The notes under the pieces: model-generated | The model's database searches: none | What the model was told of the DNA's origin: nothing | What the model saw: only the letters and a program-made list of their open reading frames with translations | Translations under genes and position numbers: made by a program | Part shown: one piece after another, positions 1 through 15,907 of the stretch | Position numbering within the stretch: position 1 is the first letter of the stretch | Layout: the number at the start of each line of letters is the position of its first letter | Assembly (NCBI GenBank): GCA_025060595.1 | Contig: JANXBX010000002.1 | Location: 1-16,289, forward strand | DNA: 16,289 nucleotides | Direction: 5' to 3' | Origin: Synergistota bacterium | GTDB lineage: Bacteria > Synergistota > GBS-1

Positions 1-725
1 TCCCAACCAACTAAAACTACAGCGTGATTAGAAATATATCCCGGAACTCCACAGTAATAGGTTTTAGCAGAACTATTAAAAAAAGGCTTATCATAGTACA
101 TAGAAGCATAAACCCCTCCATAGATATATATAGCTTCCTTTATATAATCGTTATCGTAAACATCTTCTCTACCTGGAAGAACTACCGCGTTTTCAACGTA
201 AAGAGTCCCATCCAAAATGGGGCTTGAACCAGGACCAAGGATATAAGGATCCTGAGATTCAGGAACTGGACCGCTACCCCTTGAAAGATAGGCCATGCTC
301 TTTAAAATATTTCCACCCTTATTCCAAGGATCATCATAACCACAAAGATTAATAAGATTCCTCTCAGAGAAATCGTAAGAGCCTCTACCCCTAAGCAAAA
401 GGTGAGACTCAAGGGAACCATAAGTTGCAAAAGCCCAACAAGTTCCATAAGATCCTTGATCTTTAACGCTTGTAAGAAGACCACGATTTCTTAAATCATA
501 TCTTGATGGAAGAGAAACCTTAGCTTTAAAGCTTTCCCTCTTATGCTTTCCCAAATCAACAGGTAAAGGGATTAAACCAAAATTCCTTTCAGCAGGTTCT
601 AATCTTTCAAGATATTTAATAAACTCCGGATTTAAGGGAGCGCTCTTTAAAGAGACTTCCTCACCAACAGCCAACGACGCCCAAATCAAAACTACAGCTA
701 CCACTGAAAAAACCACCCTTTTCAA
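1..725 (-). CDS. Exported papain-like (family C1) cysteine peptidase, 3' part beyond the window
   Basis: Reading from a TTG at 725 gives 241 uninterrupted codons that run off the left edge. Residues 1-21 form a signal peptide (basic start, hydrophobic core, ASLAVG end), so the enzyme acts outside the cytoplasm. The mature domain has papain landmarks: YDLRN at 76-80, oxyanion Gln90 and nucleophile Cys96 in VKDQGSYGTCWAF, and catalytic His234 in NHAVVLVGW. The catalytic Asn (NSWG-type motif) should lie beyond base 1. The usual GSCGSCW reads GSYGTCW, so the Cys before the nucleophile, which is disulfide-bonded in papain, is Tyr here. Residues 22-70 could be a short propeptide or linker. The TTG is chosen because AAGGAGG (734-740) precedes it by 8 bases, a stop lies upstream in frame, and the signal peptide begins at once. 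It follows a chagasin-like inhibitor gene by 46 bases. The family assignment is firm; the substrate is unknown. Confidence 0.88.
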   Translation of the reverse strand, partial: MKRVVFSVVAVVLIWASLAVGEEVSLKSAPLNPEFIKYLERLEPAERNFGLIPLPVDLGKHKRESFKAKVSLPSRYDLRNRGLLTSVKDQGSYGTCWAFATYGSLESHLLLRGRGSYDFSERNLINLCGYDDPWNKGGNILKSMAYLSRGSGPVPESQDPYILGPGSSPILDGTLYVENAVVLPGREDVYDNDYIKEAIYIYGGVYASMYYDKPFFNSSAKTYYCGVPGYISNHAVVLVGW

Positions 726-733
726 TTTTCTCT

Positions 734-740
734 CCTCCTT
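734..740 (-). promoter_or_regulatory. Ribosome binding site fixing the TTG start of the C1 peptidase
   Basis: The minus strand reads AAGGAGG here, 8 bases before the TTG at 725-723. No ATG or GTG with comparable spacing opens this frame, so this site decides the start. Confidence 0.7.
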
Positions 741-771
741 AAAATCCAACAATCACTCCCTACAAACTATA

Positions 772-1173
772 TCAATCAATAAACAACTCCAAATAAAATA
801 GCTTTCCATAAACGCTGAAGTCCTCCCAGGGTCTGCTATAAACGATTTTCAGAGGAGTTTTACCTATCTCTATAGCTCTAAAAACAAATATGCGAAGATC
901 TGTTCCTCCAAGTACCCCAAGCGGAGAAAGTTTAACGTTATCACTTTTCAAGAACAAAAGCCTCCCCTTATCGAAGTCCGTCACTTTCCAAACAAAACCT
1001 GCCGTAGTTACTTCCCTAAGCAAAACAACAAGAATATCTCCCCTTTTTAACAACACCTCCCTTCCAGAATCCTCCTCCTTCAAAGCAATCACATTAAAAC
1101 TCCCTTGAGCAAAGGCAAAAGACCAGAAAAATAGATTAAGCGACAAAAGAAATAAAAACACATACAATTTCAT
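772..1173 (-). CDS. Chagasin-like (family I42) inhibitor of papain-type cysteine peptidases
   Basis: This is a small exported protein of 133 residues. Residues 1-22 are a signal peptide ending AFA, followed by QGSF. The mature part, about 110 residues, has the usual chagasin length and its three inhibitory loop motifs in order. VTTAGFVW matches the NPTTGY-x-W loop, LGVLGG the GxGG loop, and YSRPWE the RPW loop. In characterised family members these three loops plug the active-site cleft of C1 peptidases. The gene directly downstream encodes such a peptidase, so the two form a likely inhibitor-protease pair, either protecting the cell from its own enzyme or holding it in check. The ATG at 1173 is preferred: GAGG (1184-1187) lies 10 bases upstream, whereas the GTG at 1182 would touch that site and add only three residues. 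Confidence 0.87.
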   Translation of the reverse strand: MKLYVFLFLLSLNLFFWSFAFAQGSFNVIALKEEDSGREVLLKRGDILVVLLREVTTAGFVWKVTDFDKGRLLFLKSDNVKLSPLGVLGGTDLRIFVFRAIEIGKTPLKIVYSRPWEDFSVYGKLFYLELFID

Positions 1174-1221: not shown

Positions 1222-1340
1222 ATTATTAAATTATCGTGTATCAGAAATAAAAACTATAAAAAATTAAGAGATAAATCTAAACAAGTTATTAATTTTTCTT
1301 ATCTTATCAAAACACAAAGGAAAGGGCTTTAAAATAGCTT

Positions 1341-1387
1341 AACTTAAAAAAATAAAAGGGGAGAGCTTATTCTAAGCTCTCCCCTTT
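1341..1387 (-). terminator. Rho-independent terminator after the first 139-residue secreted protein
   Basis: Bases 1355-1369 and 1373-1387 are a perfect 15-base inverted repeat (AAAGGGGAGAGCTTA type) with a 3-base loop. On the minus strand it is followed by a T-rich tract (TTTTATTTTTTTAA). It lies 20 bases after the stop of the gene at 1407-1826 and separates that gene from the inhibitor-peptidase operon. The rest of 1183-1406 is AT-rich and holds only the promoter listed above. Confidence 0.88.
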
Positions 1388-1406
1388 CAAAAACAACCTT
1401 TTACCT

Positions 1407-1995: not shown

Positions 1996-2027
1996 AAATT
2001 TTGCAAAAAATTAGGAGGTGTATTAAG

Positions 2028-3929
2028 ATGAAGAAAATATTATTATTATTATTATTTATCGAGGTTTTGACTCTGTTAGCTCTTTTAACTTCCGTTTGTT
2101 TCTCAATCGAAAAGGAGTCTCTACTTAATTTCGCTTACAAAACCTCTTATTTAGAGGAACCAGTTAAATTAAAAAACGGGAAAGGCGTCATCATAGCAAA
2201 AGATGGGAAAACCCTAGACATATCTTTTGAGAACTTCATATTTATTCACTCTGCAAAAAAGGAGCTTAAAGCAATCGCGGTTATACTATCTGCCAAAGCG
2301 GATAGAGAAGACCCATCTTACGACATTATGGTCCTAATTCCAGAGAAAGAAGGATTAACCCAGCTTAAACCCTATAGCCTGGGTAAGGTTAAAATAAAGG
2401 ACTGGCAAGGAAAGTGGCAAGTATCAACCATGCCCTTTAATGAAAGATGGATAATAACCCTGGATATTAAACTTCCAAACGGAGAGGAAGAAACCCTTTC
2501 ACTAAGTCAAAAAGGGGATAGTATAGTCCCTGCAGATGAAACGGTGATTAGAAAACCCGCCTTGTATCTTTATCCAACTAGAAAAGAAAAGATAAAAGTT
2601 CGACTAAGCATAGACGGAGAAATAACAGAGTCTGACCCTCCTTATAATAATCACTGGGAAGTTGAGGCAACACCCGAAGGAAACCTTTCCACTGGGCATA
2701 GATATCTCTTTTACGAAGCTAAGTTAAACTCGCCTTTAAAGCTTTCAAAAGGAGGATGGTTAGTAAAACGCGAGCAACTTTCCTCTTGGCTTGATGAGAC
2801 CCTCCCAAGACTTGGCCTTAAGGGAAGAGAGATAAGCGACTTTAAGGAATACTGGCTTAAAGAGCTTCCGGAATCCCGCTACTATGTAATAAGAACGATA
2901 TCTAAAGAGTCGATTTCAGAAAAGCTTAAGCTTAACATAGATCCTCCCCCCGCAACGATAATAAGGGTGTTTCTACACATCGAACCCACAAACGAACCGG
3001 TTAATATAGAACCTGAAAAGCTATTAGATGAGCCCAAAAGGATCGGCTTTACAGCAGTTGAGTGGGGAGTGGTTATAAAGGGAGAGGTAGAAATTAAGGA
3101 AAAACCGAAAATCTCCTCTAACCAATATGAAACCGGACTAATGCTCTTAAAGGGCATAAAATTAGATGGACCACAACTTACTATAAGGGTGGATAGCGGT
3201 GGATGCACCACCAAAGAAACTATAGAGACTAAGATAAGAAAGGGAAAACCGATAATTAAAGGACATAACCATTACTCCATATCCTTTATAAGAAAGGTAC
3301 CGGACAAGTGCAAGGCTTTCTTTCCAGAGGGAATCGATATAGCTTACGACTTAATAAAGGAGCTTAAGCTAAATCCTCCTTTCACCATATCAATAGAAAA
3401 TCCCGTGTCTCCAGTTATAACTGAGAAATACTTCTCCATTAAGCCTGGCAAATCTGAATCTAAAGAGGTAAACCCTGAAACATCACTTAAGATAGATCTT
3501 ATTCAGGCCACGATAAGGGCCATCGAATCGGAGATTAAAAGATATATGTCCAGAGTTCCCCCGGAACCAGAAAAGGCAAAGGAGCTTGAAAGAGAGCTTG
3601 AAAGATTTAAATCTATGAGGCCAGAGGATTACCCCTTGGAGGGAGCTCAACATGATCCTTTTAAAAGACCTGGTGTAATAATGCCGCCCCTTATCGAAGA
3701 GGTGGAAATCGTATCCTTACCAAAGCTGGGAGAGCTTCTTAAATTAACAAAGCAGTCCAAATCCGGACCTTTCTTTCACGTGGCAGGAATAGCTAAGGAT
3801 GTAAGCTTATTAGCCAAGCCAGATATAACCCCACCCTTTAAAGCCAAAATATACTTAATTTTCAAAAGAGAATACTTCGCAAACATACCAAACTACTATG
3901 TATATGTAGAGAGAATTTCCAGGGAATAA
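2028..3929 (+). CDS. Exported protein with KPALYLYP-type domain, function unknown
   Basis: The product has 633 residues. Residues 1-26 form a hydrophobic signal peptide; Cys24 is not in a convincing lipobox. Residues 27-165 look like a beta-rich N-terminal domain. Residues 174-350 resemble a recurrent family of unknown function that opens with KPALYLYP (176-183), followed here by PPYNNHWEVEATPEG (204-218), DFKEYWLKELPE (271-282) and GFTAVEWG (340-347). Residues 383-460 form a second module with two cysteines, SGGCT (Cys393) and VPDKC (Cys428), which may form a disulfide outside the cell. Residues 485-535 are charged and helical. The ATG at 2028 is chosen because AGGAGGTG (2013-2020) precedes it by 7 bases; an in-frame TTG at 2001 lacks such a site. 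It is the only plus-strand gene and lies between two paralogous secreted-protein genes. I recognise the KPALYLYP pattern but know no assigned activity. Confidence 0.8.
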   Translation: MKKILLLLLFIEVLTLLALLTSVCFSIEKESLLNFAYKTSYLEEPVKLKNGKGVIIAKDGKTLDISFENFIFIHSAKKELKAIAVILSAKADREDPSYDIMVLIPEKEGLTQLKPYSLGKVKIKDWQGKWQVSTMPFNERWIITLDIKLPNGEEETLSLSQKGDSIVPADETVIRKPALYLYPTRKEKIKVRLSIDGEITESDPPYNNHWEVEATPEGNLSTGHRYLFYEAKLNSPLKLSKGGWLVKREQLSSWLDETLPRLGLKGREISDFKEYWLKELPESRYYVIRTISKESISEKLKLNIDPPPATIIRVFLHIEPTNEPVNIEPEKLLDEPKRIGFTAVEWGVVIKGEVEIKEKPKISSNQYETGLMLLKGIKLDGPQLTIRVDSGGCTTKETIETKIRKGKPIIKGHNHYSISFIRKVPDKCKAFFPEGIDIAYDLIKELKLNPPFTISIENPVSPVITEKYFSIKPGKSESKEVNPETSLKIDLIQATIRAIESEIKRYMSRVPPEPEKAKELERELERFKSMRPEDYPLEGAQHDPFKRPGVIMPPLIEEVEIVSLPKLGELLKLTKQSKSGPFFHVAGIAKDVSLLAKPDITPPFKAKIYLIFKREYFANIPNYYVYVERISRE

Positions 3930-3978: not shown

Positions 3979-4398
3979 TTACTTCTTGAGCTTTGCAACA
4001 ACAGCAATGGCAGCAGGTTTAACTGTTGCCTTGCCCTTCTTAACTACAAGGTTTATCTTAGCGTTAAGGTCACCCTTCGCCTTATCAGTAGCGGTAGCCT
4101 TTACCTCAACGGTCAAGGTCTTAGGAGCATCACCAGGCTTCAACGTTACCGAGCCCTTAGCCTCAAGCTTCCAACCCTCGGTAACATCAGCAGGAGCAAG
4201 CTCGATAACTACTTCCTCAGTTAAATCCTTAGGCGTGAAGGTGAAATTAACGGAAGCACTAACTGTCCCACCTACTGCAACCTCCTTAAGGTCAACCTTA
4301 TCCGGGCTAACTGTAACCGTAGGTCCAGCCGCAAAGGCAAAAGCAGCCATAAGAAGGGAAGCAACCAACATTAATCCTAAACTAACTATCTTTTTCAT
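3979..4398 (-). CDS. Small secreted Ig-like/beta-sandwich protein, copy 2
   Basis: This 139-residue paralogue of the protein at 1407-1826 aligns end to end without gaps, with about 32 substitutions. Residues 1-23 form the signal peptide (ending AFAFAA). The central block from TFTPKDLTEEVVIEL through KPGDAPKTLTVEV is nearly unchanged, whereas the mature N-terminus and the last 30 residues have diverged, so the core is the constrained part. The C-terminal half is more basic than in copy 1 (for example Lys replacing Gln). The start has a GGGGGTGA Shine-Dalgarno site. As in copy 1, third codon positions are richer in G and C than in neighbouring genes. The role is unknown; a structural or surface-layer-associated protein is my inference. 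Confidence 0.82.
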   Translation of the reverse strand: MKKIVSLGLMLVASLLMAAFAFAAGPTVTVSPDKVDLKEVAVGGTVSASVNFTFTPKDLTEEVVIELAPADVTEGWKLEAKGSVTLKPGDAPKTLTVEVKATATDKAKGDLNAKINLVVKKGKATVKPAAIAVVAKLKK

Positions 4399-4987: not shown

Positions 4988-5860
4988 TTAAAGCTGAGTA
5001 CACAAAAGATATATGAAAAACGTAGCTGCAGCAAGGTCTGCTGAACCCCCAGGGCTTATACCTCTTCTCTTAAAATCTTCATCCATCTCGAAGATGGCCT
5101 TTCTACCCTCCTCTGTAAGCATGCCACCCATACTCATGACGTTTTTAGCTTTCCCTCTAACCTCCTCAAGAGCCTCTAAGGAGAATCTACCTATCACATT
5201 CGTATCCTCAGCAACCTGCATTATAGCCAAGAGAGTATGAACAATCGCATCGTTATCGTTTAAGCCGGCTTTCTTAGCCTCAATTAAAGCCGGGAGCCCA
5301 TAGTTTATCACCGTTGGAAGCCCTTTTTCTACTTCCCCTCTTATGCCTTTAATACCATATTTGATGTAGAGGCTTTCCCCTCTCGTAAGGCTCTTCTTAA
5401 GATGCAGTCCAGATAAATCTTTCTCCACAATTCCCTTACATATTTCTCTAACCCTCATAGAAATCCCTTCAGGAGTGATGCTCTCACCCTTACCTAACAT
5501 ATAACCAACCGAAGCGGATATTATTCCAAATAGAAAAAGAAGGCCCTTCTGAGTATTAACTCCACCGGTTACCTCAAACATTCTCCTTTCAGCCTCTACT
5601 CCTATCTTTCGCAACTTACCAAAAATGGCCTCGAGCTCTTCCCTTCTTCCTATCTCAGCACATAGGGCTATAGGGAAAAACAAAACTGAGGAACTTTTCA
5701 AAAAGATAAAAAAGTCCATATCCTTATGGCTACCTGAAGAAAAGGGAGAAACCAATCCTGGTGAGGGATAAGAAGCTACCTCATAAAGCATAGAAGTTAA
5801 AGCTAACTCAGCTATTCTAATAGAAACTTCACTTATCTCGTAAGTGACAATTTCTCTCAT
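4988..5860 (-). CDS. citG: Triphosphoribosyl-dephospho-CoA synthase CitG
   Basis: CitG makes the precursor of the citrate lyase prosthetic group from ATP and dephospho-CoA, releasing adenine. The 290 residues carry the family blocks in order: YPSPGLVSP (31-39), GSHKDMD (43-49), TGGVNTQKG (98-106), GIRGE (172-176), EDTNVIGR (218-225) and GISPGGSADL (267-276). The length is normal. The ATG at 5860 lies inside citX, overlapping it by 32 bases; the next ATG would remove part of the first conserved helix, so the overlapping start is preferred. Its ribosome site is weak, so coupling to citX translation is likely. Last gene of the cit operon; a cytoplasmic maturation enzyme. Confidence 0.93.
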   Translation of the reverse strand: MREIVTYEISEVSIRIAELALTSMLYEVASYPSPGLVSPFSSGSHKDMDFFIFLKSSSVLFFPIALCAEIGRREELEAIFGKLRKIGVEAERRMFEVTGGVNTQKGLLFLFGIISASVGYMLGKGESITPEGISMRVREICKGIVEKDLSGLHLKKSLTRGESLYIKYGIKGIRGEVEKGLPTVINYGLPALIEAKKAGLNDNDAIVHTLLAIMQVAEDTNVIGRFSLEALEEVRGKAKNVMSMGGMLTEEGRKAIFEMDEDFKRRGISPGGSADLAAATFFIYLLCTQL

Positions 5861-6341
5861 TGTAAACCCTAACCATATTTTCTATTTTAGTTAAAAGCTC
5901 ACTTAAGGAATGCCTTCTCTCTATAATACACTCACTTGCCTCTCTACCGCAAAGAATACAGGCTCTAACTTTAAAACCTAAGTCTCTCCTACTTAAAATC
6001 CTAAAGGGATAATCTATAATGTCTATATCGAAAAGCCTACCTAAAGGATGCTCTTCCTCTATCTTCACAGCTTTTAACTTAGCCTGAAGCGGATCTTCGG
6101 AAAGGAGGCCAATAAGGCAAAAACCTGCGGGACCCTCCTCCTGAATCGTTAAAATAAAGCTAAAAATATCAATGCTTTTAAGGGCTTCACTGAAGATAAA
6201 TCTAGATATATCATTAATCTTATTAACCCCAGGATAGTTAAGCGTAAGGACAAGTAAAGGCCTTTTAAACCTTTCCAAAAGCTTTAAAAGGAGATCATAT
6301 CTCTTTTCTCTACCTTCAAGAATGCTTTCTAAGATATCCAT
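5829..6341 (-). CDS. citX: Apo-citrate lyase phosphoribosyl-dephospho-CoA transferase CitX
   Basis: CitX attaches the prosthetic group made by CitG to the conserved Ser of CitD, turning apo- into holo-citrate lyase. The 170 residues begin with the typical ILEGREKR helix (7-14), followed by LTLNYPGVNK (32-41), GRLFDIDI (101-108), ISR-like LSRRDLG (116-122) and the C-terminal CILCGREASEC...RRHS block (128-145). The ATG at 6341 shares one base with the citC stop (TGATG). An in-frame TTG one codon earlier is possible. The upstream sequence is pyrimidine-rich with no Shine-Dalgarno site, which points to translational coupling with citC. It is separate from citG, unlike the citXG fusions known in some bacteria. 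Confidence 0.92.
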   Translation of the reverse strand: MDILESILEGREKRYDLLLKLLERFKRPLLVLTLNYPGVNKINDISRFIFSEALKSIDIFSFILTIQEEGPAGFCLIGLLSEDPLQAKLKAVKIEEEHPLGRLFDIDIIDYPFRILSRRDLGFKVRACILCGREASECIIERRHSLSELLTKIENMVRVYNERNCHLRDK

Positions 6342-7381
6342 CAATGGGGAGAGAGGGTCTTTTTAATCCTTTCTATTATTCCCTTAGCCTCTTCGCTCAT
6401 CAAAAACTCCAAGGTAGTTCTCGGTAATAGCTCCGCTAAACCCTCAAAATCACCCTTCCTTATCCTCTCCCTGACTAAGGAAGCAGAGACCGCCTTCCCT
6501 CCGACCTCGAGTCTCGGAATCTCTACAAACTCTATTCCCCTTTCAGGAAGCCTCTTAGACATAACCCTATTATAGGTGTATGTGACCGGATCATAGGGCT
6601 CAGAGCCAACGAACCTCCTCTTTATGCTCAGAGTCGGAGCTATATATCTGGAAAACAAGTCTATATCTAGTTCGGCCTCGCTCTCTATCCTCTCACTCTG
6701 TTTTCTTATGAAATACCCAGGGAAAGTTGCAGAGGATACCACATAGTCACCACCATCTATAATAATCACATTCTTAAGATCGCCAGTTCCCTTTTCTATT
6801 AGCATCTTCCTAATCTTGAAAGGAAATAACGATCTTTCCTCTTGGACAACAAAAATATACAGGGTTTCACATAAAGAAGAGGCCTTTTCCACAAGAAACC
6901 TATGCCCTAAAGTAAAGGGATTACAGTTCATAACTATAGATCCGTTATTCAATGTATTCCTATCATATCTCTTAAGCCTATTCACATAGTCCTCTATTCC
7001 ATCCATTCCGTACTCAAGAAGAATCACCTTACTGCCACTTGCTATATGCTTATAACCCAAGCTTTCAAATATAATGAGATTATCAGGCTTAGTAAAAACG
7101 AAATTCTTATAAATCCCTTTTGAGGAAAGCCTCTTTATCATCTCCCCAACCAAAACTGAAGCTAAATTTCTACCTCTATAATCCTCCCTAACAGCAAAGC
7201 ACTTAAGCACCTTGCCGCTCAATGAACAGGTAGCAACTATTTCGCTTCCATCAAACAAAGCTATCGATCCCTCCACATCCTCATCAAGGGATAGGTCATG
7301 CATCTCCAAGAAAGCTATAAGCCTTTTCCTATCTTTATCAAAGGATAAGTCTATATCTTTTAAGGTTAATCCCTCTATCAC
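6341..7381 (-). CDS. citC: [Citrate (pro-3S)-lyase] ligase CitC
   Basis: CitC uses ATP and acetate to acetylate the thiol of the CitD prosthetic group, switching citrate lyase on. The 346 residues have two domains. Residues about 1-125 form a GNAT-like domain (FAVREDYRGRNLASVLVGEM is its acetyl-CoA-binding-like segment). Residues 145-345 form a nucleotidyltransferase domain with MNCNPFTLGHRF (151-162), where TLGH is the family's version of the HxGH motif, and ASLVRERI near the end. The GTG start at 7381 overlaps the citF stop by four bases (GTGA) and has AAGGAGG just upstream. The position of citC between citF and citX differs from the usual citCDEF order. Confidence 0.94.
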   Translation of the reverse strand: MIEGLTLKDIDLSFDKDRKRLIAFLEMHDLSLDEDVEGSIALFDGSEIVATCSLSGKVLKCFAVREDYRGRNLASVLVGEMIKRLSSKGIYKNFVFTKPDNLIIFESLGYKHIASGSKVILLEYGMDGIEDYVNRLKRYDRNTLNNGSIVMNCNPFTLGHRFLVEKASSLCETLYIFVVQEERSLFPFKIRKMLIEKGTGDLKNVIIIDGGDYVVSSATFPGYFIRKQSERIESEAELDIDLFSRYIAPTLSIKRRFVGSEPYDPVTYTYNRVMSKRLPERGIEFVEIPRLEVGGKAVSASLVRERIRKGDFEGLAELLPRTTLEFLMSEEAKGIIERIKKTLSPH

Positions 7382-8919
7382 ACCTTTACCCTCCTTATAA
7401 CATCGATAACCGTTCCATCCCTATACTCCACCACACCAACTATTTTATCGCCAAACTCTATATCTTCAGGTCTACCACAAAGCTTGTAGGCTCTATTCCT
7501 AAGCTCCAGTATGTCAACAACTGGAAGCCTTTTATCAGTGAGCTTTCTTTTAATATCCTCTCTTCGTGGGTTAACTGCTATTCCATGCTCAGTTACTAAA
7601 ACATCTACAGTCTCACCTGGTGTAGTAACTGTTGTAACCTTATCAACCACTATGGGGATCCTACCCCTTAAAAGATTAGCGACTATAACCGTCAATTTAC
7701 TTCCAGCGGCAGTATCGCTATGCCCGCCTGACCCACCCATTATGTAACCATTGGAACCAGTGGTAACGTTAACATTAAAATCTAAATCTATCTCTGTAGC
7801 ACCAAGTATTATAACGTCTAAGTTATTTACTACCGCTCCCTTGTTATGAGGATTACCATACATAGAAGAAGATATCTCTACGTGATTCCTGTCCTCCCTC
7901 AGGGACTCTACAGCTTTCAGGTCGAAACACTGAGTATCTAAAAGAACTTTAAATAAGCCTTCTTTAAGCATATCAACAAAAAACCCGGTTATGCCACCAA
8001 GCCCGAAGCTACCGACTATCTTCCTCTCTCGCATTATATCCCTTACGAACTTGGCAACCGCTAGAGAAGTTCCACCTGCGCCAGTTTGAAAGGAAACTCC
8101 ATCTACTAAAAGGCCTGAAGCTTCGACGACCTGAGATGCCATGTAAGCTATCTTAAGCTCAAGAGGATCCCTTGTTATACTGGTTGTTCCTGAAACTATC
8201 CCTCTAGGATCCCCTATTTTATCCACCTTAACCACATAATCTATAAAGGTCTGATCTATGCTTATCGGAAATAGCGGATAATCAACTAAGTTATCTGTAA
8301 TTACAACTACATGGTCGGCATACCTTGCATCCGAAAAGGCATATCCAAGAGAACCACAGGCCGAGGGGCCACATACTCCATTCACATTTCCATATACATC
8401 TGCAGAAGGGGCCGCAATGAAGGCCACATCAATATGAAGCTCCCCAGCCTCTATGGCTCTATCCCTTCCACCGTGAGATCTCATAATAACCGGAAGATCG
8501 AGAATCCCCTCAGAAACAGCGCTAGCCACGGGACCAACTATATAATTAGTTTCTATTCCTACAACTACCCCTTTCTTAATATGTTCAACAAGAGGCGCAT
8601 GACATTCAAACAGAGCACTAGGTGCGATCCTAATATCTCTTATTCCCATCTTAGCTATCTCATCTAAAACCATGTTTAACACATAATCTCCATTCCTTAA
8701 ATGATGATGAAAGGAGATCGTCATACCATTACTTAAGCCCACCCTCTCAATGGCATCCCTTAAGCTACCTAAGACTTTAGCCTCTCCAGGTAATACCGTT
8801 TTATACCTGCTTGAAGCTCTAACACCGCTTCCCAAGATAGAGAAAGCTCCGCTAAAGGGGGTCACCTTTTTGTAACCTTCTATTTTAGAGGGGATCTCCC
8901 TTCCAACGGCATTAATCAA
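7378..8919 (-). CDS. citF: Citrate lyase alpha subunit, citrate:acetyl-ACP transferase CitF
   Basis: CitF swaps the acetyl group on CitD for citrate, forming citryl-ACP and acetate. The 513 residues match the usual length. Landmarks include SFHHHLRNGD (69-78), SADVYGNVNGVCGPSACGSLG (172-192), SFQTGAGGTSLAVAKF (276-291), GNPHNKGAVVNNLDV (355-369) and the Gly-rich GGSGGHSDTAAG (395-406), all typical of CitF and the coenzyme A transferase fold. The start is a TTG at 8919, overlapping citE by 8 bases, with GGAGGTGG 7 bases upstream. A cytoplasmic enzyme of the lyase complex. Reading frame is intact. Confidence 0.95.
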   Translation of the reverse strand: MINAVGREIPSKIEGYKKVTPFSGAFSILGSGVRASSRYKTVLPGEAKVLGSLRDAIERVGLSNGMTISFHHHLRNGDYVLNMVLDEIAKMGIRDIRIAPSALFECHAPLVEHIKKGVVVGIETNYIVGPVASAVSEGILDLPVIMRSHGGRDRAIEAGELHIDVAFIAAPSADVYGNVNGVCGPSACGSLGYAFSDARYADHVVVITDNLVDYPLFPISIDQTFIDYVVKVDKIGDPRGIVSGTTSITRDPLELKIAYMASQVVEASGLLVDGVSFQTGAGGTSLAVAKFVRDIMRERKIVGSFGLGGITGFFVDMLKEGLFKVLLDTQCFDLKAVESLREDRNHVEISSSMYGNPHNKGAVVNNLDVIILGATEIDLDFNVNVTTGSNGYIMGGSGGHSDTAAGSKLTVIVANLLRGRIPIVVDKVTTVTTPGETVDVLVTEHGIAVNPRREDIKRKLTDKRLPVVDILELRNRAYKLCGRPEDIEFGDKIVGVVEYRDGTVIDVIRRVKV

Positions 8920-9757
8920 CTTGATCCACCTCCAGGCCAGCTCTTCTTAAAGTAAGCTTAGCCCTGGCGATTATAGGAGCATCCACCATCCTACCATCAA
9001 CTATGAAAACTCCTCTACCTTCTCCTCTTTTCAAAGCCCTCAAAACTCTTAAGGCAAACTCCACCTCTTCTTCTGAGGGGAGATAAACCTTCTTTATCAC
9101 TTCAATTTGCCTCGGATTTATAGCAGCCTTGCCAGTATAGCCTAAGCTTTTACCTTTAAGAGTATCTAACCGCAAACCCTCCATATCATTAATATCTGTA
9201 AATGGGGTATCAAGTCCCTCCATACCAAAAGCATGAATTGCATTCGCTATCCTAGATCTCGCAAAGAGGATCTCTTCCCCTTCCCTAGTTCTTCTTATAC
9301 CCATATCAAGGGCGTAATCCTCAGCACCAAAAAGAAGACCTTTAACCCTTGATGAAGCTCTTATAATATCGATCACAAGCTCAACTCCAAGAGCGGTTTC
9401 AATAATAGGCACTATAAAGAGCTTAGATTCGAACCTATCAAGAACATCTGACACAGCCTTAATACCTTGAGGGCTCGCCTTCGGAACCATTGCTCCCCAT
9501 GCGGGAGTATCCACAACATACTCCAAATCCTTATACCAAAGATCGCTATCAAGCGAGTTAATTCTAACGATAACGCTTTTCCCAAAAAAATCAAGATTAA
9601 GCAAGGCTTCCCTTAAAAGCTCTCTTGCGGAATCCTTCTCGCTTAGTGCTACGGAGTCCTCAAGATCGAATATCAGGGAATCGCAATCAAACGCCAAAGA
9701 GGCATTTATCATCGCAGGAGAAAACGCTGGAACAAACAGAGATACAACACCTAACAT
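8912..9757 (-). CDS. citE: Citrate lyase beta subunit, citryl-ACP lyase CitE
   Basis: CitE cleaves citryl-ACP to oxaloacetate and acetyl-ACP with Mg2+. The 281 residues show LFVPAFSPAM (7-16), IFDLEDSVALSEKDSAR (29-45), Arg65 in VRINSLDS, metal-site candidates Glu120 (PIIET) and Asp147 (GAEDY), and the family end block GKAAINPRQI followed by VDGRMVDAPIIARA. The N-terminus is slightly unusual: the common RRSxLFVPG reads VVSLFVPAF, with the Gly replaced by Ala and the basic pair absent. The ATG at 9757 overlaps citD by 7 bases, with AAGGAGG upstream inside citD. Nothing suggests loss of activity. Confidence 0.95.
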   Translation of the reverse strand: MLGVVSLFVPAFSPAMINASLAFDCDSLIFDLEDSVALSEKDSARELLREALLNLDFFGKSVIVRINSLDSDLWYKDLEYVVDTPAWGAMVPKASPQGIKAVSDVLDRFESKLFIVPIIETALGVELVIDIIRASSRVKGLLFGAEDYALDMGIRRTREGEEILFARSRIANAIHAFGMEGLDTPFTDINDMEGLRLDTLKGKSLGYTGKAAINPRQIEVIKKVYLPSEEEVEFALRVLRALKRGEGRGVFIVDGRMVDAPIIARAKLTLRRAGLEVDQVD

Positions 9758-10017
9758 CTCAAATTTGCCCTCCTTATAGCGCTTTTGAGGCGCGCCCTTA
9801 TACAGTAGTCTAAGGCACCCCTATCCTGAACTTTGAAATATCCCTTAACTATCCCTAACTCCCTTATCGTATCTTCCACAATCTGCTTTATCCTTCTACC
9901 ATATCGTTCCATAACAACGCTTTCTATATCTACCTTTAGAGTCTCATAGGGCTTAACCATAACAAGGCAGTCACAGGACTCCAAGGATCCTGCAACTGCC
10001 TCTCTTAATATCTCCAA
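9751..10017 (-). CDS. citD: Citrate lyase gamma subunit, acyl carrier protein CitD
   Basis: CitD carries the phosphoribosyl-dephospho-CoA arm that shuttles acetyl and citryl groups between CitF and CitE. The 88 residues begin with AVAGSLESCDCLV; Ser14 is the expected attachment site (AGTLESSD in enteric CitD). The later DRGALDYCIRARLKSAIRRA segment matches the conserved C-terminal half. The start is a TTG at 10017: GAGGTGA lies about 7 bases upstream and the TTG gives the normal distance to Ser14; no ATG or GTG fits. It begins 13 bases after the symporter stop. Confidence 0.94.
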   Translation of the reverse strand: MEILREAVAGSLESCDCLVMVKPYETLKVDIESVVMERYGRRIKQIVEDTIRELGIVKGYFKVQDRGALDYCIRARLKSAIRRANLRC

Positions 10018-10030
10018 TTATCTTCACCTC

Positions 10031-11326
10031 TCACATCTTTCCCACAAGACTTACCAAAAATCCTCCCAATATAAGCATTATAGCCCCACCGATTCTAGAT
10101 GATATCTGAGCAAAAGGCATAAGCTCCATCCTCTTGCAAGCCGAAAGTACCGCCACGTCACCGGTCCCACCCATGTTAGACATACAGAGGCCTGCGGTTA
10201 TCGATGATTCTATTGGATAAAATCCAACCCATTTACCAACTATCCACGCCCCTATTATTGCTCCAAGCACAGTAATGAAAACTATAGCTATGTACTGCCA
10301 AGAAGCCATTGCCTTTAAAACATCAGGTAAGCTTGTATAACTTACACCTATTCCAACAAGTAAAGCTCTTGTCCAATAGTTTACCACAAACCTATACCAC
10401 TGATTTGCACACTGTTCTAATTTCTCTGAAAGAAGGCCAAACCCCTTTACCAAAGCAACAGAAATTATCATCCATGCAAAGGAATGAATCATAGGAAAAG
10501 CCTTACCTATGATAGCTCCAAGAATATAAAAGCAACACGCCATGAACATACCCATACCCATCATCGTCAAATCAAGACTAAACTTCTTGCTCGTCGAGGT
10601 ATCAATATCCTGAGAGGTCATCATTTTTCCGTTTCCAGTTAAGTGAGGTTTCACCTTACCCAACCTATCAAGAAGACCAGCAGCCACTATAGACAAAGCA
10701 TTACCTAAGGCTACAGCCGGAACCATTATAGACAATATAGTTGCAGGATCTTGCTTCAAAGCCTCACCATATATCTTAGACATGGGAACGGCACCAGCAC
10801 CCATACCACCACCCATTATAGGAACACCTATGTAAAGAAGAGCCTTTTGCCAGCCGTAACCGGTCAAAGCCCCTAAAGCGGAAGCAAAAAGTAAAGAAAC
10901 TAATATCGAACCAAAAAGGGCAGGGAAATACCTCGCACCGGCATTTATAAGAAGCCTTCTATCCATACCAAGAATACTACCTGTTATCAATGCAGCGATA
11001 TAAAAATCTAAAAAATTACTTGTCTTCATAAAAGCATCAACGGTTTTTATCGCAACATCAGGGATAATCTTATAAGCAACTAAAGCAGCGCTACCAAATA
11101 TAACCACTATAGGGCCACCACCTAAATAATCCTTAACGATGGGTAACCTATCCCCAAGCTCCCCAAATATAGCGCCTACAACTATCATAACCGCAAAAGC
11201 TCCAACCATATTGGAAGGAAGAATCTTAAGATAAAGGCTCAAAAAAACTATGAGAGCAAAAATTAAAAAAACGATAGGGGGAAAGCCTTCAATCTTAAAA
11301 CCGCCATTCCTTGACTCCTGAGACAT
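10031..11326 (-). CDS. 2-hydroxycarboxylate (2HCT) family symporter, probably citrate or citrate/malate
   Basis: The product has 431 residues with about eleven hydrophobic segments. Both re-entrant loop signatures of the 2HCT family (CitS, MaeN, CimH, CitP) are present: GGGMGAG (172-178) and GGTGD (386-390). The substrate-binding Arg is Arg411 in ISSRIGG. It would import citrate, or a related 2-hydroxycarboxylate, with Na+ or H+ into the cell for CitDEF; which ion and substrate cannot be read from sequence. The ATG at 11326 has GAGAGGTG 7 bases upstream. It is the first gene of the cit operon and lies 110 bases from the response regulator gene. CitS- and MaeN-like proteins are not reliably separable by eye, so no symbol is given. 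Confidence 0.93.
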   Translation of the reverse strand: MSQESRNGGFKIEGFPPIVFLIFALIVFLSLYLKILPSNMVGAFAVMIVVGAIFGELGDRLPIVKDYLGGGPIVVIFGSAALVAYKIIPDVAIKTVDAFMKTSNFLDFYIAALITGSILGMDRRLLINAGARYFPALFGSILVSLLFASALGALTGYGWQKALLYIGVPIMGGGMGAGAVPMSKIYGEALKQDPATILSIMVPAVALGNALSIVAAGLLDRLGKVKPHLTGNGKMMTSQDIDTSTSKKFSLDLTMMGMGMFMACCFYILGAIIGKAFPMIHSFAWMIISVALVKGFGLLSEKLEQCANQWYRFVVNYWTRALLVGIGVSYTSLPDVLKAMASWQYIAIVFITVLGAIIGAWIVGKWVGFYPIESSITAGLCMSNMGGTGDVAVLSACKRMELMPFAQISSRIGGAIMLILGGFLVSLVGKM

Positions 11327-11350
11327 TAGGATACACCTCTCTTTAAGGGG

Positions 11351-11379
11351 ATTATGTTTTCCTTTAGGATAGCTGATAA
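11351..11379 (-). promoter_or_regulatory. Candidate promoter of the symporter-cit operon
   Basis: The minus strand shows TTATCA (11374-11379), a 17-base spacer and CATAAT (11351-11356), four and five matches to consensus. The start point would lie about 18 bases before the symporter ATG, leaving room for its ribosome site. No terminator is visible after the regulator gene, so read-through from the two-component operon is also possible. Confidence 0.5.
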
Positions 11380-11414
11380 CAGGGGATCAAGAAAGCTTTA
11401 AGAAAATATTTTCC

Positions 11415-11429
11415 AAATTTATGAAATTA
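11415..11429. promoter_or_regulatory. Candidate operator, AT-rich palindrome upstream of the cit promoter
   Basis: AATTT (11416-11420) and AAATT (11424-11428) form an inverted repeat around a 3-base centre, about 36 bases upstream of the -35 hexamer. CitB/DcuR-type regulators bind AT-rich sites upstream of the promoters they activate, so the position is suitable. The repeat is short and could be chance in AT-rich DNA. Confidence 0.25.
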
Positions 11430-11436
11430 ACGAAAG

Positions 11437-12099
11437 CTATAGCACCTTATATAAGGTTATAGGACGTCCGGCCGACCTATAGCAAATCTCACTAATTAGA
11501 AGACCTTCCTCTTCAAGATAATCCAAATATTTTTTAACCGTAACACGGGAAATGCCCAATACCTTAGAAACCTCTTCAGCAGAGACAGGCTTACCTAAAG
11601 ACCTCACTGCTGAAAGTATTCTCTCTATAGTCCTTCTATCAAAGCCCTTTTTCTCAAAGGACTGTTCCTCTCTACCCGCAAGAATTACATCAAGGTCGCT
11701 CTGGGAAAGAGATTGAGACTCTTTTATTTTGCTTTTCTTCTTAAGATAGCTACATAGGGCACACTTTAATCTTCCTAAATCAAACGGTTTTATCAAATAG
11801 TCGAAAACACCATACCTTAAGGCTTCTTCTACATCCGCGCTTTGATTATCTGCGGTAACCATTATGACATCAACTTTATAACCAAGCCTTCGAAGCTCCT
11901 TTAAAAAGGTTATCCCGCTTTCTCCAGGCATATAGATATCGAGGATTATCAAATCAACCGCCGAAATCTCAAGAAACCTCTTAGCTTCAACAGCGCTCCT
12001 AGCAACTCCAACAACGCTAAAACCATCAACCATATTTACACACTTTCTATTTATCTCAGCTACCATAGGGTCATCCTCTACTATCAATACGTTAATCAT
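11437..12099 (-). CDS. CitB/DcuR-family response regulator
   Basis: The product has 220 residues. Residues 1-120 form a receiver domain with acidic pocket Glu8-Asp9-Asp10, phospho-acceptor Asp54 (LIILDIYMPG), Thr82 and Lys104 (KPFD). A linker leads to a C-terminal winged helix-turn-helix (about 172-199, VSAEEVSKVLGISRVTVKKY) as in CitB, DcuR and CitT regulators. It probably activates the adjacent cit operon when phosphorylated. The ATG at 12099 overlaps the kinase stop by four bases (ATGA) and has AAGGAG at 12109-12114, 9 bases upstream. An ATG three codons earlier would abut that site and is less likely. Confidence 0.93.
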   Translation of the reverse strand: MINVLIVEDDPMVAEINRKCVNMVDGFSVVGVARSAVEAKRFLEISAVDLIILDIYMPGESGITFLKELRRLGYKVDVIMVTADNQSADVEEALRYGVFDYLIKPFDLGRLKCALCSYLKKKSKIKESQSLSQSDLDVILAGREEQSFEKKGFDRRTIERILSAVRSLGKPVSAEEVSKVLGISRVTVKKYLDYLEEEGLLISEICYRSAGRPITLYKVL

Positions 12100-13682
12100 A
12101 CCCCGCATCTCCTTGGAATTTTAACCACAAAAACAGTGCCACTATTAGCACTAGACCTAACCTCCACGCTTCCGCCCTTCCTTTCAACTATCTGCTTAAC
12201 CATGAATAGTCCCATACCCTTTCCATCCCTTTTTGTCGTAAAGCCCTTTTCAAATATCCTCGGCAATATATCCTTGGCTATACCAGGACCGCTATCATAA
12301 ACCTTAATAAAGATATAATCCTTACGTTCTTTAAGATATATACCTACAACCTTGTTACCTTTATCAATCATGGAAAGCGCATCTATAGAGTTTTCTATAA
12401 GATTTCCCAATATGGTCACAAGCTCACCCGATGATACATGACCATGATCTTCATAAAGTTCGCTTCCTTCATCTAAATAAAGCCTTGCACCTATCTCAGA
12501 AGCACGGCTATACTTACCCAAGAGCAAGGCAGCTACCTTTTTATCCTTTATGCTCCTTGTGACCTGCCCAGTAAAACCATGCTGAGCTCCAAGCTCATCA
12601 TAAATAAAGCTTAAAGCATCAGAGGTTTGTCCCAAGCTTATTAAGCCAGCAACCACATGCATGTGATTCATAAACTCGTGAGCTTGAGCCCTCAAAGTAT
12701 CCACCACCTGCTTATAACCCGTTAACTGCTCTCCAAGATGCTCAAGGTCGGTCTTAAGCCTAAAGCTCGCTATTGCACCTTCAACCCTACCATTAACTAC
12801 TATAGGTACCCTATTAGTTATTATAGATGTCCCATTAACTACCTGTTCATCATCACGCTCAGGTATACCTGTCCTTAAAACCACCTTCAAACGAGATGTA
12901 GGTATTAGCTCTTCCACATCCTTACCTATAACGCTTTCCTTTTCTTCCACGCCTACTATTCTTTTAGCAGCATTATTCATCAACGTTATTTTGCCTTCCT
13001 TATCCACCGCGATTATACCTTCTACTACAGCATCAAGAATCACGTTCTTTTCTTCAAGCATCTTAGCTATCTGATATGGCTCAAGACCAAAGATATCTTT
13101 TTTAATGTTCTTGGAAAGCAGGTAAGAGCCAGCCACACCTATAGCCATAGCGAAAAACATTATAATAACTACATTTTTAGCAACCTCCCACTGTACCTTT
13201 CTTATATCCTTAGTTAACGTTCCCACCGCTACAGCACCTATCTGTTTATCCCCATCCTTTATGGGCGTTAACGCTCTTAAGGAAGGACCTAAGGTACCAA
13301 CCGCCTTCGATATGTAGGTTTCACCTCTTAAGGCTCTACCCTCATCTCCGCCGACGAACTTCTTCCTTATGTTTTGAGGATTAGGGTGAGAATACCTTTC
13401 ACTATTCATATTAATAATAGTTATAAACTCTATATTAGTTGAGTTTCTCCTTATCCTTTCCGCATAGGGCTGAAGTATCTCCTCTGGGCGCTCAGAATAA
13501 AAGGCAGATATCACAAAAGGATCAGTTGCTACCGATCTTGCAACGTTCATCACATTTATAGCCATCTGCTTCTCTATAGAGTCGCTCACAATCCTTATGG
13601 TAAAGAAAGCAGTAGAGGAAAGACATATCACCACTATCGTAAAGGCTAAAAGCATAACCTTCGTCTGGAGTCTAAGCCTCAT
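12096..13682 (-). CDS. CitA/DcuS-family membrane sensor histidine kinase
   Basis: The product has 528 residues. Two membrane segments (about 8-29 and 169-190) enclose an extracytoplasmic PAS/Cache-like ligand domain with the family pattern RYSHPNP (96-102), GGDEGRALRGE (111-121) and GTLGPSLRALTPI (129-141). A cytoplasmic PAS domain follows (about 212-310). The kinase part has phospho-acceptor His335 in AHEFMNHMHV, N box NLIENSID (427-434), DSGPGIA (463-469) and GKGMGLF (487-493). Its place beside a 2HCT transporter and citrate lyase suggests it senses external citrate; malate or another dicarboxylate cannot be excluded. The ATG at 13682 has GGGGGG at 13690-13695 seven bases upstream, so it is preferred over an in-frame GTG at 13697. 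Translationally coupled to the regulator. Confidence 0.93.
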   Translation of the reverse strand: MRLRLQTKVMLLAFTIVVICLSSTAFFTIRIVSDSIEKQMAINVMNVARSVATDPFVISAFYSERPEEILQPYAERIRRNSTNIEFITIINMNSERYSHPNPQNIRKKFVGGDEGRALRGETYISKAVGTLGPSLRALTPIKDGDKQIGAVAVGTLTKDIRKVQWEVAKNVVIIMFFAMAIGVAGSYLLSKNIKKDIFGLEPYQIAKMLEEKNVILDAVVEGIIAVDKEGKITLMNNAAKRIVGVEEKESVIGKDVEELIPTSRLKVVLRTGIPERDDEQVVNGTSIITNRVPIVVNGRVEGAIASFRLKTDLEHLGEQLTGYKQVVDTLRAQAHEFMNHMHVVAGLISLGQTSDALSFIYDELGAQHGFTGQVTRSIKDKKVAALLLGKYSRASEIGARLYLDEGSELYEDHGHVSSGELVTILGNLIENSIDALSMIDKGNKVVGIYLKERKDYIFIKVYDSGPGIAKDILPRIFEKGFTTKRDGKGMGLFMVKQIVERKGGSVEVRSSANSGTVFVVKIPRRCGV

Positions 13683-13702
13683 AAATCTACCCCCCACTAA
13701 GA

Positions 13703-13780: not shown

Positions 13781-15907
13781 CTACTCTACTTCTACTGTAA
13801 ATCTATAAGTACTGCTCGTCTTCCCATCTGGAGCCACAATCTCTACGGTAATAACTGAACCATTAGAAACAGGAACCTTAACCCTTTCACGATAGCCTAC
13901 TTGTTGACCATTGACCTTAATTGAAACAACTTTTGTAGACATGGTTGTCGGAATAACAGTTACCTCTTTTATTCCAGAAGCGACTTTTATCTTATAATTG
14001 AAAGTCCATGGATCAAACATATTAGCAAGCGAATTCTCTATTATCCTTTGTTCCCCAGCCCAATCTACTATAGTTGGAGAAGCCCATGTTAATTTCGTTC
14101 CTACTAAGGTTGCTCCTTCAAACTCTATGTTAGAGAGCACCGAATACTTTTTAAAACCATTAGGACCATTATAGTTATATACAACGCCATCCTTTGTAAT
14201 ATTTGTCAGATATTCTGTGGAGTCGAACATTATACCTGGAATCCTTAAAGCTATCCAGCGAGTATTATCGTACCACATATCTCCTATCATGGTTGTTCTG
14301 GCCCCTACTGGATCCCTACCACCACGTAAGGTTGGTCTGCAAGCCGCTTCACCATAATCTATAACTTGCTGTAAAGCCATCTCAAACAACTTAAGATTAA
14401 TGTCTTCTAGAGGTGTTTCATCATGCCCAGTGAATAGAAGATTAATTTTACCATTTTCTTTAAGGTAAGCAGAGTAAACCTGCTGCACTAAGGATAGCAA
14501 TAAGTCTGTTTTAACTCCTGTTACACCAACATTATCAGCAGAACCAGCACGAGTACAACCATATATATCCGATGAGAAAATTAATCCATTAGCTTTATCC
14601 TGAAGTATAACATTACCATGCGAATGTCCAGGTAATGCATAAACATGAAGGGTACATCCTCCAAGGTCTATCTTATCACCCCAGTCAATGTTTATTATCT
14701 TTGCCTGATCGCTCGGATTCGTAACAATTGTTCTCAAGCCAGACCAATCACGCATATTGCAGTAAATCCTATGCCCAAAGTTAATGAAATTGGCTATTTG
14801 AGCCGCATGATCTGTATGAGAGTGTCCAATAACAACATCATATGGTTTTGTTGCTATATTAGTATCAATATAAACTTTTAAGCTCCTAATAGAAGCCCCT
14901 GTTTGACCAGCATCAAACAATATCCCTCGTTCTTGTCCCTCTATGTACCACATCATAGGACGCACACTATCCGAATCATTCCAAATGGAATAAACTGCTG
15001 GTCTTGTATTAGTTTTGCTAAGTATCTTTCTGTGACCAAATTCAGACTCCTCAGGTGTAGGTCTATATAGATACCATACAAAGGTTTGGACTTGACTTGG
15101 GATCAACCCCTGCTTGTAAGAATATGCTTTAAAAATTACCTTACAATTAACTCCTCCTGTCGCTAATCGTTCTAGTGAAATATGACCATTAACTGCCAAA
15201 TTCCACACCTTCGCTGTTCGTGAAGTACGCGGATCTGTACCATCTGTTGTATAAACTATAGTAGCATCTGGATCCGGACAATAAAGCTTCACATAACGAC
15301 GAGGAGCAGTATAGTTTTGCCTTGGAAGAGCATAAACTGGAGGTGTTATAGTACCCAATATAGCATTAAATATTTCCTCTACTTCCTCCCTAGTTATGAA
15401 TGCTTTCGGCATAAACAGTTTATCTGTTCTGCCTTTCATGCACTTAAGTTCCACAAGGGCATATACACTTCCTCTTGCTTTTTCACTTATTGAACTATTA
15501 TCTTCGTAATTCGTTGGTTTACTAGATTCAGGAATCTTAAAAGCTCTAACAAAAATAACAGCTGCTTCTTCCCTAGTTATGTAACTACCTGGATTAAAGT
15601 TGCCTCCCTCATCAGGCTCTACAATACCTTCTTCATAAGCAGCCTCTATTTGCATTCCATAGGGATCCTCAGTTTTTACATCTTTAAATTTTTTAGGAAG
15701 CACTTGATATTTCCAAATATCATTATACTGATTTGGATGTGGCCATTGAAAATAATCTGCAATTTTAGCAATTAGCTCTGCTTTCGTTATTAAGCCCTCG
15801 ACATTCTCTTCCTCCCCCCCAACACAACCAAAAAGAACCATCGAAAAAACCGACACGAATAAAAGTAAAATCCAACTTAAACCTCTTAATTCGAATAAGT
15901 TCTTCAC
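13781..15907 (-). CDS. Surface lipoprotein with SLH repeats and a metallo-beta-lactamase-fold hydrolase domain
   Basis: The product has 708 residues. A lipobox-like VLFGC places the lipidated Cys at 28. Residues about 37-185 hold SLH-type repeats (ITKAELIAKIADYF, ITREEAAVIFVRAF, ITREEVEEIFNAIL), which usually bind cell-wall polymer. Residues 186-280 resemble a chitobiase C-terminal domain (IVYTTDGTDP, 217-226). The metallo-beta-lactamase domain (about 300-520) has all zinc ligands: HSHTDH (362-367), His428 (LPGHSHG), Asp447 (FSSDI) and His495 (FTGHDE). After about 540 comes an unassigned region, then a cadherin-like beta-sandwich (645-708, VVSIKVNG and TYRFTVEV). It should be an active extracellular hydrolase; the substrate is unknown. 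The GTG at 15907 has a GGGGGG-rich ribosome site 5-6 bases upstream. It lies 37 bases after another secreted-protein gene. Confidence 0.88.
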   Translation of the reverse strand: MKNLFELRGLSWILLLFVSVFSMVLFGCVGGEEENVEGLITKAELIAKIADYFQWPHPNQYNDIWKYQVLPKKFKDVKTEDPYGMQIEAAYEEGIVEPDEGGNFNPGSYITREEAAVIFVRAFKIPESSKPTNYEDNSSISEKARGSVYALVELKCMKGRTDKLFMPKAFITREEVEEIFNAILGTITPPVYALPRQNYTAPRRYVKLYCPDPDATIVYTTDGTDPRTSRTAKVWNLAVNGHISLERLATGGVNCKVIFKAYSYKQGLIPSQVQTFVWYLYRPTPEESEFGHRKILSKTNTRPAVYSIWNDSDSVRPMMWYIEGQERGILFDAGQTGASIRSLKVYIDTNIATKPYDVVIGHSHTDHAAQIANFINFGHRIYCNMRDWSGLRTIVTNPSDQAKIINIDWGDKIDLGGCTLHVYALPGHSHGNVILQDKANGLIFSSDIYGCTRAGSADNVGVTGVKTDLLLSLVQQVYSAYLKENGKINLLFTGHDETPLEDINLKLFEMALQQVIDYGEAACRPTLRGGRDPVGARTTMIGDMWYDNTRWIALRIPGIMFDSTEYLTNITKDGVVYNYNGPNGFKKYSVLSNIEFEGATLVGTKLTWASPTIVDWAGEQRIIENSLANMFDPWTFNYKIKVASGIKEVTVIPTTMSTKVVSIKVNGQQVGYRERVKVPVSNGSVITVEIVAPDGKTSSTYRFTVEVE

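Follow-up and report, generated by a model that had tools for sequence, protein, structure and literature searches.

The analysed stretch of DNA (the window, 16,289 nucleotides) opens with a gene pair that probably constitutes an enzyme–inhibitor operon, in which an exported chagasin-family (I42) inhibitor guards the cell's own envelope proteins from a Cwp84-like peptidase. The inhibitor gene precedes the papain-like (C1A) peptidase gene on the same strand, an arrangement that is conserved among Synergistota. Combinations of the two families are also found in other phyla, and the inhibitor has been kept in several genomes in which the enzyme is broken or gone.

Inhibitor and peptidase genes

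The window lies at the beginning of contig C2, which has 208,309 bases and is one of the 34 contigs of a 1.86-Mb genome; the host belongs to the Synergistota. The features of the pair, all on the minus strand, are the following.

1353–1389, minus strand: terminator-like hairpin of 17 pairs, which ends the gene upstream of the pair and sets the pair apart
1253–1281, minus strand: weak promoter-like site ahead of the inhibitor gene, TTTAGA-17-TATAGT
772–1173, minus strand: inhibitor gene, chagasin family (I42), 133 aa, ATG start, product predicted to be exported
1108–1173, minus strand: putative signal peptide of the inhibitor, MKLYVFLFLLSLNLFFWSFAFA followed by QG, read from the sequence
994–1011, minus strand: loop L2, VTTAGF (family consensus NP[ST]TG[YF]), from alignments
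895–918, minus strand: loop L4, GVLGGTDL, a partial match to the family GxGG, from alignments
820–834, minus strand: loop L6, RPWED, with RPWE intact, from alignments
731–740, minus strand: ribosome-binding-site-like AAGGAGGAGA before the peptidase start, read from the sequence
3–725, minus strand: N-terminal part of the peptidase gene, C1A papain-like, product predicted to be secreted, probably starting with the TTG at 725, truncated where the contig ends
438–458, minus strand: oxyanion-hole Gln (456–458) and catalytic Cys (438–440), both matching the corresponding residues of relatives in an alignment
24–26, minus strand: catalytic His codon, aligned with the His of relatives

The preliminary description had proposed an inhibitor–peptidase pair, and the pair is real: both proteins match their family profiles, the strand is shared and the inhibitor gene comes first. 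The 46-base spacing given there stands provided that the peptidase starts at TTG 725, just after the AAGGAGGAGA box, and each protein, read by eye, opens with a signal-peptide-like stretch as had been reported. Given that the preceding gene ends in the hairpin and that a weak promoter-like site lies between the hairpin and the inhibitor gene, the pair probably begins its own transcript. In a profile search of the whole genome, I42 and C1 gave one match each. Across the analysis as a whole, three antisense open reading frames with C1 scores were treated as artefacts and dropped.

The inhibitor belongs to I42 by profile (Pfam PF09394, 43.2 bits, cut-off 27.2). The mature protein, modelled with AlphaFold2 (mean pLDDT 90.4, pTM 0.81), has the Ig-like chagasin fold: in a Foldseek search the best match was EhICP2 (TM 0.87–0.88), chagasin itself gave a TM of about 0.72, and the top 12 PDB matches were all ICP or chagasin structures. 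The loop motifs were read from an alignment against 84 I42 family members. Here the earlier statement that all three motifs are present holds for L6, where RPWE is intact, but not in full for the others, since L2 reads VTTAGF and L4 retains GxGG only in part. In L2 the Asn and Pro are lost and the second motif Thr is replaced by Ala, with the first Thr and the Gly kept; of the positions conserved among the 84 members, the inhibitor further retains a Tyr, the RPWE of L6 and, behind L2, an invariant Gly and Trp. The departures in L2 and L4 are shared by its two nearest relatives (52–53% identical), which read VETAGY and ASTAGY in L2. The residue on which chagasin depends most when it inhibits cruzipain, an enzyme of the same parasite, is the first Thr of this loop; the substitutions P30A and T32A raise the Ki from 7.6 pM to 20 and 16 pM, a cost of only about 2–3 fold (PMC2607524). 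Since that cost is small, the L2 departure of the inhibitor is compatible with inhibition. Most of the inhibitors scanned from neighbouring genera carry an N-terminal carboxypeptidase-regulatory-like domain; several Synergistota I42 proteins (L064, L068 and similar ones) have it as an extra domain, and the window's own family is without it.

The peptidase fragment matches Peptidase_C1 (Pfam PF00112) with 58.4 bits against a cut-off of 20.7, and the Gln, Cys and His that had been assigned to it are all there. Contig C2 ends at base 1, within the gene. With the C-terminal part of a relative's enzyme as query, the 3' part of the gene was located at the very end of contig C13 (G000:C13:56654-57269 of 57269, minus strand), in an orientation that fits a continuation. 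Comparison with relatives places about 60 codons in the gap between the two contigs. The catalytic Asn, which is present in the relatives, falls in this gap, so the activity of the window's peptidase copy is not certain. On C13 the frame is open; it encodes a lectin-like domain (PF18560, 90.9 bits) and a tail of the form GGGGGGCSAGG-hydrophobic-RRR. Against the Synerg-CTERM model TIGR04564 this tail scores 18.1 bits, below the cut-off of 22.5, and that of the relative in G082 scores 29.2, above it. The best PDB match of the peptidase fragment is Cwp84 (4ci7, E 5.7e-18), in an alignment that begins in the propeptide region, and a relative's enzyme matches Cwp84 over both domains, with Cwp84 among its two best PDB matches. 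When the two parts are joined across the unsequenced gap, one protein thus contains a propeptide, a C1A domain and a PF18560 lectin-like domain. On the basis of this lectin-like domain and of the Cys/membrane/Arg sorting tail on C13, the enzyme is by sequence Cwp84-like and probably surface-anchored. A tree of C1 domains put the window enzyme on a long branch beside enzymes of other phyla; the program flagged this join as possibly false, and it was set aside.

Several other genes of the window were recorded. At 1407–1826 and 3979–4398 (both minus strand) lie genes for two exported proteins of 139 aa that are nearly identical and fit no clear family. Between them, in the opposite orientation (2001–3929, plus strand), lies a gene for a 633–642-aa exported protein, which no Pfam or NCBIfam model matched. 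By reading, the region 4988–13697 (minus strand) resembles a set of citrate lyase genes accompanied by those of a 2-hydroxycarboxylate transporter and of a two-component system similar to CitAB. A 708-aa protein (13781–15907, minus strand) has an unusual combination of S-layer homology, metallo-beta-lactamase-fold hydrolase and cadherin-like domains.

Gene order and gene loss among relatives

Among 185 Synergistota genomes, 30 contain an I42 gene over the cut-off, and in 13 of these it is immediately followed by a C1 gene in the same orientation, the inhibitor coming first every time (G000, G003, G020, G022, G029, G033, G043, G051, G081, G082, G105, G115 and G149). These 13 span seven genera and five families. 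The adjacency that the preliminary description predicted for relatives, a test set beforehand, is therefore conserved, with contiguous peptidase and inhibitor genes on one strand. Where the start is clear, the spacing ranges from a stop/start overlap (G003, G081, G051) up to under about 200 bases. In G029, G043, G020 and G115, two C1 genes follow the inhibitor gene. The relatives searched have at most 11 C1 genes each in genomes of roughly 2,000–3,000 genes, so that chance adjacency is expected for well under 1% of genes; it does not explain the 13 of 30 observed. In 16–17 of the 30 there is no C1 gene next door, some of these I42 genes being at contig ends, and among the first 100 relatives I42 is present without any C1 match in G007, G057 and G097. 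In the same 100, a C1 gene occurs in 19 of 22 genomes with I42 and in 43 of 78 others (Fisher p 0.012, for genomes that are related and hence not independent draws).

The association is with a particular kind of enzyme. Enzymes at least 48% identical to that of G029 occur in 12 genomes, and all 12 are I42-positive, although only 30 of the 185 genomes are. In contrast, more distant Cwp84-like enzymes with C1 and lectin-like domains are common in genomes without I42. The inhibitor is thus tied to one enzyme subclade and is not generally required by enzymes of this type.

In three or four genomes, the enzyme is lost or broken and the inhibitor is intact. In G003, an intact inhibitor gene lies beside an enzyme gene that has a frameshift and a deletion over the region of the His and Asn. 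In G002, the gene right after that of the inhibitor reads as gmhA; the enzyme gene is absent at the locus, and no lectin-like gene was found anywhere in the genome. Elsewhere, G002 encodes a C1 peptidase distinct from the paired one (L062:2292-3992), which combines a PKD domain with a Cys/membrane/Arg tail. In G057, an intact inhibitor gene is followed by a 94-bp remnant of the enzyme 3' end; two enzyme genes have been deleted, the sister genomes G029 and G043 each having the inhibitor and two enzymes. The orphan inhibitor of G057 has a dN/dS of 0.14–0.16 relative to G029 and G043, which indicates purifying selection. In G108, finally, the close homologue of the enzyme has an internal stop. 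Retention of such orphan inhibitors could reflect another target of I42.

Beyond these relatives, a scan of named genomes with the window's inhibitor as single query returned no relatives; an alignment of canonical I42 domains did retrieve loci. Of the 80 I42 loci obtained, nine lie within 6 kb of a C1 domain, and in all nine the two are on one strand, either as immediate neighbours or in a single protein. Four of the nine are from Synergistota. The reverse order, with the enzyme first, is seen in two Deltaproteobacteria MAGs, one Acidobacteriota and one Aminicenantes MAG. In a Chloroflexota MAG, I42 and C1 are fused in one 864-aa protein (L153:996-3590) that has the canonical NPSTGY and RPWE, with the catalytic residues in place. 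In this protein, a signal peptide is followed by I42, a middle domain and the C1 peptidase, with a dockerin-like stretch at the C-terminus.

Proposed function and alternatives

In the mechanism that we favor, the inhibitor would be made first from a shared transcript and exported on its own. The enzyme is predicted to comprise a signal peptide, a propeptide and a papain domain, then a lectin-like domain and finally a membrane/Arg tail that contains a Cys and is of the Synerg-CTERM or MYXO-CTERM type. It would leave the cytoplasm as a zymogen and become attached to the cell surface, where it may cut surface proteins or peptides. Should the enzyme be activated too early in the envelope, the inhibitor would occupy its active-site cleft, and the cell's own exported proteins would be protected. 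The idea of a cognate, self-protecting pair, already put forward in the preliminary description, is supported by the adjacency, the pairs in other phyla, the fusion and the repeated loss of the enzyme from genomes that retain the inhibitor. The toxin–antidote wording that came with it has support only as an analogy: both proteins have export signals, the enzyme resembles a surface peptidase of the Cwp84 type that has a propeptide of its own, and nothing points to addiction or killing. Likewise, a toxin–antitoxin system in the strict sense has a toxin that acts in the producer's cytoplasm, which does not fit two proteins with export signals, one of them with a propeptide-like region and a sorting tail.

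The inhibitor might instead be aimed at foreign cysteine peptidases, those of hosts, protists or competing bacteria, and share a transcript with the peptidase only as part of an extracellular protein-use set. The bacterial chagasins tested so far were indeed assayed on eukaryotic enzymes, that of P. aeruginosa on cathepsin L (PMC2784779) and Cip1 of P. syringae on tomato proteases (PMC5014320). This explanation would also accommodate the persistence of I42 without a partner enzyme in G007 and G057 and the many I42 genes here that have no adjoining C1 gene. The repeated adjacency of I42 with one enzyme family across several phyla, a natural I42–C1 fusion and an enzyme subclade confined to I42-positive genomes point instead to an enzyme of the same cell as the target, and we consider this explanation unlikely.

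Somewhat more doubtful is a broader proposal, that bacterial I42 proteins may be envelope immunity factors against surface C1A peptidases of self or kin. The pair would then have been shuffled between phyla in both orders and once fused, with orphans kept against the peptidases of neighbors.

The retained orphans, one of them under purifying selection, could similarly be immunity genes of a toxin–immunity pair, in which the peptidase hits other cells and the inhibitor confers immunity on self and kin; a predicted surface-anchored peptidase with a separate exported inhibitor is compatible with such a role. However, no delivery module or polymorphic-toxin architecture was seen, PADLOC gave no match, and the enzyme resembles a zymogen of the Cwp84 type that processes surface proteins. 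Moreover, the inhibitor proposed for a papain-like polymorphic toxin belongs elsewhere, being Imm35 with Tox-PL1 (PMC3482391). A toxin–immunity pair is therefore quite improbable. An anti-phage defence system, for which PADLOC was likewise without a match, was rejected. Least probable of all is that the two genes lie together by chance or that the pair is in decay, with a peptidase broken in the gap and a degenerate inhibitor loop: L2 departs from NPTTG in all three members of family f1, the enzyme is broken in G003 and absent in G002, and the contig breaks inside the peptidase gene, but both visible enzyme parts are open, the Gln, Cys, His and C-terminal tail are intact, and so are the inhibitor fold and its RPWE loop.

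Comparison with known systems

With I42 proteins such as chagasin, EhICP2 (amoebiasin-2), the ICP of P. aeruginosa and Cip1 of P. syringae, the inhibitor shares the fold, the RPW loop and the first Thr and Gly of L2, and, like the secreted Pseudomonas I42 proteins (PMC5014320), it is predicted to be exported. It differs from known I42 proteins in its L2 (VTTAGF), its partial L4 and the pairing of its gene with that of a C1A peptidase. In a 2009 survey, inhibition by bacterial chagasins was shown only for a eukaryotic enzyme (PMC2784779), and according to a 2016 paper the role of bacterial chagasins had not been elucidated (PMC5014320); in the searched literature, no target within the producing organism was found demonstrated (PMC2784779, PMC5014320). 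The conserved operon with one peptidase subclade, together with the fusion, names a specific same-cell partner for bacterial chagasins, which is their likely target as judged from gene context. The question of what bacterial chagasins act on thereby becomes testable with two purified proteins.

Cwp84 of Clostridioides difficile is a surface-layer processing peptidase that cleaves SlpA and whose propeptide lies in the active site (PMC4089489). Its propeptide, C1A and lectin-like domains are in the same order as in the window enzyme. Unlike Cwp84, the window enzyme has a predicted Cys/membrane/Arg tail in place of cell-wall-binding repeats, a diderm host and an I42 partner gene, and it would represent a Cwp84-type enzyme that likely has a protein inhibitor dedicated to it.

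Operons that place a papain-fold peptidase beside a specific inhibitor, which is thought to block premature activity, are known for staphopain and staphostatin, for SpeB and Spi, and for the C10 peptidases and staphostatin-like proteins of Bacteroides (PMC3462683). Side-by-side peptidase and inhibitor genes are common to these operons and to the pair described here, and the principle of the operon is thus not new. The combination of I42 with C1A is new in the searched literature, where no report of such an operon was found, although a 2002 paper on conservation of the chagasin family may mention such pairs. In the present pair, both the inhibitor family (I42, Ig-like) and the peptidase family (C1A) are different from those of the known operons. 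In addition, Spi and the staphostatins act in the cytoplasm, whereas the window inhibitor has, by reading, a signal peptide, and in Synergistota its gene comes first. Since it is an I42 protein with a signal peptide, the inhibitor is expected to work like the staphostatin/Spi group without being a member of it. The pair would therefore represent the staphostatin/Spi logic applied beyond the cytoplasm, with an inhibitor from an unrelated family.
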